Under the pieces are notes generated by a model. The model was given only the letters and a program-made list of their open reading frames with translations. It had not been told where the DNA came from and did no database searches. This document shows, piece after piece, positions 3,462 to 6,810 of a DNA stretch of 64,000 nt. The translations under genes were made by a program, and so were the position numbers. Each line of letters starts with the position of its first letter. Position 1 is the stretch's first letter. This stretch comes from Frischella japonica. Lineage in GTDB: Bacteria; Pseudomonadota; Gammaproteobacteria; Enterobacterales; Orbaceae. The stretch lies in NCBI RefSeq assembly GCF_014489845.1, contig NZ_JABURY010000006.1:310001-374000 (forward strand), read 5' to 3'.

Positions 3462-3483
3462 TTTTGCGTAAGCTTTCGCAGAA
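3462..3483 (+). promoter_or_regulatory. CRP-S (competence)-type regulatory site upstream of the DNA-uptake operon
   Basis: TGCGTAAGCTTTCGCA at 3465-3480 matches the competence-type CRP site TGCGA-N6-TCGCA at nine of the ten defined positions, flanked by T-rich sequence on the left and GAAA on the right, as in Pasteurellaceae sites. Such sites need both CRP-cAMP and the competence activator Sxy (TfoX). It lies about 80 bases upstream of the GTG of the first gene; a weak TTTAGAT -10 candidate near 3502 would place it about 41 bases before the transcription start. The match is read directly; the function is inferred. Confidence 0.65.
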
Positions 3484-3561: not shown

Positions 3562-4635
3562 GTGTATTACATTACAATTTTTGTTGAAGAATTTTTACTA
3601 AACTGCTGTATTGGTCAATTGAAAGGGCAAAAAATAATCATTTTAACCTCTCAAACGTTTAATAAAGATGAACAATCAATAGCAGATTTTACACTATATA
3701 TAAAAAAAAACTTGCCTCAGGTAAAAATAAAGCCGATTTGTCGGTGTATTTTAATAGATCATGGTACAAAAAAAGCCAGTTTGGCATTACCTAACATTCC
3801 GTTATTACCTTTTGAAATAGACAATTATGTCAAACAAAGTTTATCTAGAATATTTATTAACCAGGAAAGTTTAGCTTATGATTTTATAATTGAAGATAAA
3901 AGGCAAACGGCGGAAGGGAATCTACAAATTATTGTTTATGCTTATCCAAGTAGGCAAATTGATAGATTAATAAAACTATTCCCATGGCAAGTTATCTTTG
4001 TAGGTATTCCTAATCAGTTCATAAATGAATCAGATGTTCTAAAGTTTGACGTTAATGCGCTGGCAACAATGAAACAAATTGACGGTATTAATTTATTACC
4101 CTGGCGCAATTGGCAAAGAAAAGCGCGAAGAAAGCAATTTTTTTATGTATGTTTTAGTCTATTAATAGTTATAACATCAGTGTCAATAATCTTATACTAT
4201 TTGGCCTTACAAGCACTAAATCAACAAATTCATCGTAATACTCAATTACAAGATCTTTATTTAAAATCCAAATCACAGTTAACACAATTAATTGATATCA
4301 ATAAACAAAATAATCAATTAAAAGCGACTTTGACTCAACGACAATCGATTACTAACAATTATGCACACCTTATAGAATCATTAATGAGTTTATCGGAAAC
4401 GATTCCCAATAACCTATGGTTAAATTCACTTGAATATTACGATGATCACTTGAATATCAACGGTGTCAGTTATTTATATGATGATATTTTATTGTTTTCA
4501 CTGCAATTAGAACAGCATAATTTGATTATGAAGAGTGAAATTACAACCATAAAGAAACACTATGAACAATTGTTATTTAATATCAAGATTCAATTAGATC
4601 ACGCACAAAATAGTAGGGGATTAGATTATGAATGA
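3562..4635 (+). CDS. Fused PilM-like/PilN-like competence pilus assembly protein (HofM-HofN/ComA-ComB)
   Basis: 357 residues. The C-terminal half is a PilN/HofN protein: the conserved cytoplasmic motif INLLPWR (about 176-182), a basic stretch, one membrane helix (about 194-215), then a coiled-coil and periplasmic domain. The N-terminal 170 residues hold the place of PilM (HofM/ComA) but are shorter than the usual 260 or so and weakly conserved. In type IV pilus machines the INLLPWR tail of PilN docks into PilM, so here the two partners appear to be one chain. Start is GTG with AAAGG upstream. It overlaps the next gene by 8 bases. A run of nine A's (3712-3720) lies inside the PilM-like half. 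A degenerate, PilM-derived N-terminal extension is the alternative reading. Confidence 0.75.
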   Translation: MYYITIFVEEFLLNCCIGQLKGQKIIILTSQTFNKDEQSIADFTLYIKKNLPQVKIKPICRCILIDHGTKKASLALPNIPLLPFEIDNYVKQSLSRIFINQESLAYDFIIEDKRQTAEGNLQIIVYAYPSRQIDRLIKLFPWQVIFVGIPNQFINESDVLKFDVNALATMKQIDGINLLPWRNWQRKARRKQFFYVCFSLLIVITSVSIILYYLALQALNQQIHRNTQLQDLYLKSKSQLTQLIDINKQNNQLKATLTQRQSITNNYAHLIESLMSLSETIPNNLWLNSLEYYDDHLNINGVSYLYDDILLFSLQLEQHNLIMKSEITTIKKHYEQLLFNIKIQLDHAQNSRGLDYE

Positions 4636-5164
4636 AAAACTTGATTATTGGCTTTATCAACCGAATAAGTTCCGTTATAGCACTATTTTAATAATAGTAC
4701 TAATAATCTCCTATGCTATTTATCTCATTGGAATACGGCCTATTTATGATCAGCAAGAGCAACAAAATTTGCAATATCAAACATTAGAACAAGATATTAC
4801 ACATTTAGAGCAGGAAATAACTCAATTTCCAACATTTTCTATATTAAATCATGAGAATGAACAATTAGTTAGCCAATTACAAAAACTAACCTTCATGCTA
4901 AAACAACAAAATCATATCTTTATGCAACTGCTGGCGCAAAGTCATTTAAAACTAATGGAGTTCACTAATAAGAATGACACGGATGTTATTCATTATCATG
5001 TTAAAGTAAGCGGTTATTTTCATGATTTACTGATTTTCCTTGAAAGTTTAAGTCAGCGCTCAATTTTTCTTCAACTTGAGACAATTGGTATCGAGAGACA
5101 AAACGATAACCTGCTTGTTTCTTTGTCTTTTCTTTCTAAATATCATCAGGTTTCTTATGAATAA
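4628..5164 (+). CDS. hofO: Competence pilus assembly protein HofO/ComC (PilO-like)
   Basis: 178 residues: short cytoplasmic N-terminus, one membrane helix (about 18-37), a Gln/Glu-rich coiled coil (about 40-90) and a small C-terminal periplasmic domain, the build of PilO. With PilN it forms the inner-membrane alignment complex of the type IV pilus-like DNA-uptake machine. The assignment rests on size, topology and position between the PilN and PilP genes, since PilO sequences diverge strongly. Its start overlaps the end of the hofM/N fusion and its stop overlaps the start of hofP, indicating translational coupling. Confidence 0.75.
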   Translation: MNEKLDYWLYQPNKFRYSTILIIVLIISYAIYLIGIRPIYDQQEQQNLQYQTLEQDITHLEQEITQFPTFSILNHENEQLVSQLQKLTFMLKQQNHIFMQLLAQSHLKLMEFTNKNDTDVIHYHVKVSGYFHDLLIFLESLSQRSIFLQLETIGIERQNDNLLVSLSFLSKYHQVSYE

Positions 5165-5540
5165 ATATGTGGGGATTTTATTATTGCTTTATTCATTAAT
5201 AACGCATGCAGCTCAAAATAAAGATATGAAATTAAAAGATCCTTTTCAAATGCCACAATTAATCCCATGCGCAGATATAGAAACACAATTGCGAAATCAA
5301 ATAAATCAATGGCAATTTCAAGGTTATGTTGAGCAGCAAATGGGCAGTCAGCACATAATTGCAATTATTCATAAGGTTAATAACAAAATATGGTTAACGC
5401 TTTCTGATTTAACCGTTCCTATGCAGCTTTTGCCGTGGAAAATTATAACCATTACACGAACTGAGATCCATTGGCAAGCGAATTTACCTGATTATTGTCA
5501 GAAAAACTTAATTTTGACAATGAAATTACAAGGGGTTTAG
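5157..5540 (+). CDS. hofP: Competence protein HofP/ComD (PilP-like)
   Basis: 127 residues when started at the ATG at 5157, which overlaps the hofO stop by 8 bases and gives a clean signal peptide (MNKYVGILLLLYSLITHAAQ). A longer frame from 5076 would put the signal peptide inside the protein and is unlikely. The mature start contains DPFQMPQ, like the DPF motif of PilP proteins, and the rest could form the small beta domain that links the inner-membrane complex to the secretin. No lipobox cysteine is present, unlike classical PilP lipoproteins. The next gene begins 1 base after its stop. Confidence 0.7.
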   Translation: MNKYVGILLLLYSLITHAAQNKDMKLKDPFQMPQLIPCADIETQLRNQINQWQFQGYVEQQMGSQHIIAIIHKVNNKIWLTLSDLTVPMQLLPWKIITITRTEIHWQANLPDYCQKNLILTMKLQGV

Positions 5541-5541
5541 C

Positions 5542-6810
5542 ATGAATTATTATCGATATCTAAATCAATTGATTAAAAGTGGTATTTTATTAATTTTACT
5601 ATTAATTACCCGTCAAGGATACCCAGCTGAAAGCCATCAGCCAGATCGTATCTCGATTAATTTTTATCAAGCACATACCAGTATTATTCTTCAATCTTTG
5701 GCCGAACAGCAGCAGCTTAATTTAGTGTTTAATGATAGCATTGATCCTATCCAAACCATTAAACTTAATAATGTTAAATGGATTAAAGCACTGGATGTGG
5801 TGACCCAATCTGCAAAATTACAATATCAGATTGATGATAACTTATTACTGGTTAATCCTCTGCCCGATCCTAAAATTATCGCAGAACAAAAACTGCAACA
5901 ACAAAAAGATGAAGAGTTAAAATTGCCGCTAAGCTATTTATCAGTTGCAGTCAATCATGCCGAACCGAAAACAATTAGCACTATGGTTAGTGAACAAAAT
6001 TTATTATCAGAAAGAGGCAAAATTTTTATAGATGATCGCACTCATAATTTGATCATTTATGATATTGAACCAAATTTGCCCAAAATAGCCACCTTAATTA
6101 AACAATTGGATCGGCCTATTCCACAAATTCATATAGCGGCTCACATTATCACAATGAGTACGGAAAGTGCCGATGAGTTAGGGATAAAATGGGGATATAC
6201 CAAAAATTCTTCGCAATTTATTCAACAGTTAGATATTAATATGGGGGTTAGTAATGCGCCTGCTACTATAGGGTTTAACTTAGCTAAACGTTCTAGCAAT
6301 TTATTAAATTTAGAATTATCGGCTTTGGAAGCTGAAAATCAATTAGAAATTATTGCCAGCCCAAATTTATTAACTTCTCATCAACATACGGCCTATATTA
6401 AACAAGGAACAGAAATTCCTTACGAAGTCTCCGGAGAAAATAATGGAACCACAACTATTGAATTTAAGCAAGCCGTATTAGGGCTAGAAGTAACACCGCG
6501 GGTTTTAACTGAGCATCAACTGGAGTTAACTTTATCTATTACACAAAATACTATAGGGCGTTCAATCAAACGTAGTGATGGTGGCGAAGCCTTAGCAATT
6601 AATACCCAAGAAATTCATACTCAAGTATTAGTCAATAATAATGAGACATTGATCCTTGGAGGTATTTTTCAACAGAGTCATAACCAAAATCAACAAGCGG
6701 TACCTGGTATTAGTCATGTTCCTGTGATAGGGGAACTTTTCAAATATCGTGGCAAACAGTGGCAAAAAAGAGAGTTGATTATCTTTATAACCCCACAGTT
6801 AGTATATTAA
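5542..6810 (+). CDS. hofQ: Outer-membrane secretin for DNA uptake (HofQ/ComE/PilQ)
   Basis: 422 residues. A signal peptide (about 1-28) is followed by N-terminal secretin/TonB short domains (VNFNDS-like region about 35-100), an N1 domain around 125-190 (DDRTHNLIIYDIEPNLPKI), and the secretin core in the C-terminal half with the conserved VPGISHVPVIGELF and ELIIFITPQLV near the end. It forms the outer-membrane pore through which the competence pilus and incoming DNA pass. Length matches HofQ/ComE (about 410-445). It is the last gene of the uptake operon; a 134-base gap follows. Confidence 0.92.
   Translation: MNYYRYLNQLIKSGILLILLLITRQGYPAESHQPDRISINFYQAHTSIILQSLAEQQQLNLVFNDSIDPIQTIKLNNVKWIKALDVVTQSAKLQYQIDDNLLLVNPLPDPKIIAEQKLQQQKDEELKLPLSYLSVAVNHAEPKTISTMVSEQNLLSERGKIFIDDRTHNLIIYDIEPNLPKIATLIKQLDRPIPQIHIAAHIITMSTESADELGIKWGYTKNSSQFIQQLDINMGVSNAPATIGFNLAKRSSNLLNLELSALEAENQLEIIASPNLLTSHQHTAYIKQGTEIPYEVSGENNGTTTIEFKQAVLGLEVTPRVLTEHQLELTLSITQNTIGRSIKRSDGGEALAINTQEIHTQVLVNNNETLILGGIFQQSHNQNQQAVPGISHVPVIGELFKYRGKQWQKRELIIFITPQLVY

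Follow-up and report, generated by a model that had tools for sequence, protein, structure and literature searches.

The 64,000-nucleotide stretch of Orbaceae DNA analysed here (the window) carries on its forward strand a single open reading frame of 357 codons, which starts with GTG, contains no internal stop and joins a PilM-like to a PilN-like pilus protein in one chain. We refer to it as hofMN. Within it, the INLLPWR motif begins at residue 176 (window position 4087), as originally predicted. The gene, its parts and its neighbours are laid out as follows:

3465..3480, plus strand: putative CRP-S-like (Sxy-dependent CRP) site TGCGTAAGCTTTCGCA, 97 nt ahead of the hofMN start and agreeing with the consensus at 9 of 10 positions
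3562..4635, plus strand: hofMN fusion gene, 357 aa
3562..4011, plus strand: half PilM/HofM domain, about residues 1-150, comprising the N-terminal part of subdomain IA and subdomain IC (hhalign to HofM 1-157, structure model, PDB matches)
4012..4086, plus strand: linker, residues 151-175 (alignment of 23 fused proteins; two short helices in the model)
4087..4107, plus strand: INLLPWR motif, residues 176-182
4138..4209, plus strand: membrane helix, about residues 193-216, preceded by a K/R-rich stretch (read from the sequence)
4384..4605, plus strand: PilN/HofN periplasmic ferredoxin-like domain, about residues 275-348 (PF05137, hhalign to HofN, XcpY match)
4628..5164, plus strand: HofO/PilO-like protein (T2SSM), 178 aa (PF04612, E 1e-6)
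5157..5540, plus strand: HofP/PilP-like protein, with the start inferred at ATG 5157 (operon position and sequence; relatives keep the order)
5542..6810, plus strand: HofQ/PilQ secretin, 422 aa (NCBIfam HofQ, E 1.8e-124; PilQ, E 9e-103)

Because HofO-like, HofP-like and HofQ genes follow, hofMN occupies the place that hofM and hofN hold in E. coli. Upstream, on the opposite strand, lie tRNA genes for Lys, Val and Val. The CRP-S-like site is the sole match with at most one mismatch in the 64 kb window, where 1.3 are expected by chance, so that the weight of this candidate rests on its position; in many relatives, the best such sites are found at -92 to -103. Elsewhere in the same genome, genes for HofB, HofC and a pilin stand together, and a PilT-like ATPase, ComEC and a Sxy homologue are encoded as well. 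The competence (hof/com) gene set is present in the form of HofB, HofC, pilin, PilT, secretin, ComEC and Sxy, and this gene content suggests that the system may serve DNA uptake. We found no description of competence in Orbaceae in the open-access literature, and a search for related loci with HofQ as query returned none.

Profile-profile comparison (hhalign) aligns the N-terminal part of the fusion with residues 1-157 of the 259 in HofM (probability 98.9%, E 1.7e-17). HofM 3-159 aligns in turn with residues 7-165 of 372 in a classical PilM, which we take to be subdomains IA and IC by analogy with the FtsA/PilM fold; the direct similarity of the N-terminal part to a classical PilM is weak. The Pfam model PilM_2 is matched by only 2 of the 23 fused proteins, and the one inspected lies under the cut-off; the N-terminal part of member L008 covers positions 1-157 of 340 in this model (E 8e-5, under the curated cut-off). 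Homology thus ends at position 157 both in HofM and in PilM_2. The PilM part had been described as shortened, and this can now be made specific: as judged from the alignments, actin domain II is absent, and what is retained is IA and IC, the half that receives PilN. The nucleotide site of the FtsA/PilM fold requires domain II, and with this domain absent no nucleotide binding is expected.

The C-terminal part is recognised by PF05137 in the window protein (E 9e-9) and in all 23 members, and it aligns with HofN at E 3e-22 (hhalign); neither PF05134 nor a GspL model matched the window protein. In the motif between the two parts, all 23 aligned proteins share N177, L179, P180, W181 and R182. The motif begins at residue 155-191 of the chain across members and, unlike in the tail of PilN or HofN, never forms the extreme N-terminus. 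The linker that precedes it varies in length within the family and is much shorter in Gilliamella. Comparison of relatives showed the start codons inside the gene near the motif to be scattered and not conserved (an ATG at -18 occurs in the window and in L002). Production of a free PilN from an internal start is therefore unlikely as a general rule, and we rejected this option.

The predicted structure has a mean pLDDT of 86, with most blocks of the N-terminal part at 80-91. In the model, IA consists of strands, a helix and a strand, and IC of strand-helix-strand-strand-helix-strand. Its best PDB matches are FtsA, PilM (5eoy, 5eq6, 5eou, 2ych) and the cytoplasmic domain of GspL (5tkw), in agreement with the PilM-like N-terminal fold expected from the sequence. 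The C-terminal part matches the periplasmic domain of the GspL protein XcpY (6ghu, TMt 0.82), and the membrane helix falls inside one long model helix (181-280). A sequence-only PDB search found PilN and gave no match for the N-terminal part; a single-sequence fold of residues 1-191 (pLDDT 36) was left out. In the Thermus PilM-PilN structure, the IA-IC cleft holds the PilN tail, mostly against IA (PMC7613929). Our model shows a short strand at 175-177, and it is plausible that INLLPWR docks in the groove of its own PilM part. The short linker may prevent the motif from folding back in-chain, so that docking into a neighbouring copy is equally likely.

To assess conservation, we built a profile from the 23 fused proteins and searched 44 genomes of the family, which includes Gilliamella and Orbus among its named records and consists mostly of insect-gut bacteria. 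The profile matches 42 of the 44 genomes. These come from all five genera and include each of the 39 genomes with a completeness of 90% or more. Together with the intact frame and the HofM and HofN profile matches, this establishes the natural PilM-PilN fusion that the original prediction had proposed for the window and recommended checking in related genomes. A test of a single origin of the fusion on the HofN tree gave a p-AU of 0.51, which neither establishes nor rejects it; a single origin is suggested mainly by the presence of the fusion in every genus.

Genomes outside the family carry two genes instead of one: HofM and HofN in E. coli and eight relatives, a pair of the competence type in three genomes of another, Pasteurellaceae-resembling family, and the classical PilM and PilN in further genomes. 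The fusion profile itself finds a separate HofM (8-146) and HofN (159-308) in one of the genomes (G053). Four phylum genomes that had been picked for long open frames were rejected as carriers of a fusion: in G446, PilM and PilN are separate; G473 has a separate PilM too, and its PilN frame merely stays open further upstream, in a different phase from pilM; and the PilN frames of G494 and G433 include no PilM part. A second PilM was not found in the window's genome, where the sole candidate and only PilM_2 match is MreB, and the idea of a hidden copy was dropped. A plasmid search without matches carries no weight, its query having been a made-up PilN-like peptide.

The closest counterparts by gene order are E. 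coli HofM and HofN and Haemophilus ComA and ComB, which are homologous to the two parts and share the position ahead of HofO-HofP-HofQ. They are, however, encoded by two genes, and HofM has about 260-290 aa, the second half of which is absent from the Orbaceae fusion. PilM of type IVa pili (2YCH, 5EOU) likewise shares IA and IC, and differs by the domain II that the fusion is missing. The closest counterpart by architecture is GspL/PulL/EpsL, also a single chain, in which one membrane helix links an actin-like domain in the cytoplasm to a ferredoxin-like domain in the periplasm. Compared with GspL, the cytoplasmic part of the Orbaceae protein is half-size, and its partner genes are hofO-hofP-hofQ, whereas GspL belongs to a type II secretion operon. 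The GspL/EpsL/XpsL proteins of that system have themselves been described as a PilM-PilN fusion (PMC10191384, PMC6325625). The earlier contrast with the separate genes of Haemophilus and E. coli holds, but joining as such has a precedent in GspL.

The short form probably has a type II secretion precedent too. A short XpsL-type GspL (L081/L118, 355 aa, genome G127) matches T2SSL over positions 35-134 of 231, just under the cut-off, as well as PF05137. It differs from the Orbaceae fusion in lying between GspK-like and XpsM-like genes and in lacking the LPWR motif; its cytoplasmic domain has likely been reduced in parallel. The PilM-like NCBIfam model of the Amuc_1101 family (NF045709, 608 positions) was matched weakly by the motif and helix region (357-474, E 0.05, under the cut-off), and this family may be another PilM-PilN fusion. 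A PilM-PilN fusion of this kind in Orbaceae is not described in the open-access literature that we searched. Within that literature, three things appear to be new: the DNA-uptake pilus setting, the family-wide fixation and a reduction of the ATPase to match. A GspL-like chain would occur here in a DNA-uptake pilus.

The reduction of the ATPase concerns HofB. In the window's genome, HofB (L076, G000:C36:172960-174081) is 388 aa long and lacks the MshEN/GSPII domain, with which such ATPases touch PilM or GspL in known systems; it starts a few bases past the stop of the pilin gene, which leaves no room for a longer N-terminus. Among the 44 family genomes, those of Orbus, Gilliamella and the window's genus (together g1, g3 and g5) have a HofB open frame of 370-392 aa, and those of the two other genera (g2 and g4) one of 469-489 aa. 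The Pfam model MshEN (PF05157) matches HofB of E. coli at E 1e-5; its matches to three HofB proteins of g2 and g4 are weaker and lie under the cut-off (8e-4, 0.014 and 8.5e-5). There was no Pfam match to it in the window's HofB or in one Gilliamella-type HofB, where the ATPase domain starts at residue 3-11. The absence of MshEN in g1, g3 and g5 is thus read from frame length, and from Pfam where scanned. In the HofN tree, the other three genera form a group (support 85/76) that excludes g2 and g4; this fits one later loss of MshEN, though not strongly.

In an order-wide sample outside the family, the frames of HofB orthologues or paralogues among the matches listed have at least 460 aa, except in G057. 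This genome has a HofB frame of 337 aa (G057:C1:743677-744666), yet its HofM and HofN are separate (L038), which indicates no strict tie between the fusion and the loss of the ATPase end.

We consider it probable that hofMN, in which a halved HofM/PilM is fused to HofN/PilN throughout the family, acts as a GspL-like scaffold, and that the MshEN domain of HofB was lost later. The N-terminal IA and IC half would be cytoplasmic and be followed by one membrane helix and the periplasmic ferredoxin-like domain, which should pair with HofO and, via HofP, with the secretin HofQ. The retained IA-IC cleft would most likely grip the INLLPWR segment of its own or a neighbouring copy. In this way, the fused protein would form a single-chain, nucleotide-independent scaffold of a DNA-uptake pilus, with the layout of a small GspL. 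Domain II would have been lost in the family ancestor, with or before the fusion; the loss of MshEN/GSPII from HofB would have followed in the lineage that comprises Orbus, Gilliamella and the genus of the window. The PilM-ATPase interface seems to have been cut back on both sides, one step at a time, and the halving of PilM and the loss of the HofB end may be causally tied. The simplified DNA-uptake platform envisaged in the original prediction is in line with the hof/com operon; the simplification goes beyond the fusion, as HofB has lost MshEN in most of the family.

The loss of MshEN suggests that PilM-ATPase coupling had become dispensable or had been replaced. A stronger version is possible, and we propose it tentatively: after PilM had been cut to half its size and joined to PilN, the ATPase dropped MshEN, and the motor of a working Orbaceae pilus now runs without the docking of PilM or the PilM nucleotide. 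PMC10191384 raises as an open question why type IV pili have PilMNOP, given that the simpler Com pili get by with an ATPase and a platform protein. Orbaceae might serve as a natural experiment on which pilus parts are essential, with PilM down to its PilN-binding half and the docking end of the ATPase lost, and the two genera that keep this end would permit a before-and-after comparison.

Alternatively, the fusion could anchor the ATPase in the manner of GspL, with a short cytoplasmic domain that still binds HofB and passes on force or signals as XpsL and EpsL do. The shared GspL layout is consistent with this role, as is the XpsL-type L081, which aligns over most of the family profile, and EpsL and XpsL do bind and stimulate their ATPase (PMC6325625). 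However, EpsE and XpsE make this contact through N-termini that hold the MshEN/GSPII domain (PMC6325625), and the corresponding end of HofB is missing in g1, g3 and g5. We therefore regard an anchor as rather unlikely, although it could hold for g2 and g4.

It is improbable that the N-terminal part is a decaying HofM remnant without a role, next to a PilN part that works alone. Decay would agree with the loss of domain II, the loss of the linker in Gilliamella, the breakage of the gene in two genomes (G011 and G007) and the low identity of the N-terminal part to that of the window protein (16-41% across the family), which may also mean that its function has drifted. Against it, the frame is uninterrupted in 40 of the 42 matched genomes and in five genera, the fold is confidently predicted, and P77, L81, E85, F98 and D107 are conserved in the IC part. 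A frameshift around the motif, a misassembly or a strain-specific accident can be dismissed, as independent genomes of five genera carry the same fusion in an open frame.

The gene is broken in a different way in each of the two exceptions. In G007 (L082), a single in-frame TAG follows the membrane helix, and the rest of the fusion is intact. In G011 (L116 and L117), the gene is split between a contig end and a spot beside Mu-like phage genes, which we recognised by eye. TTGGA stands at both edges of this break, as expected of a 5-base target duplication, and the insertion of a Mu-like prophage seems to be what broke the gene there.
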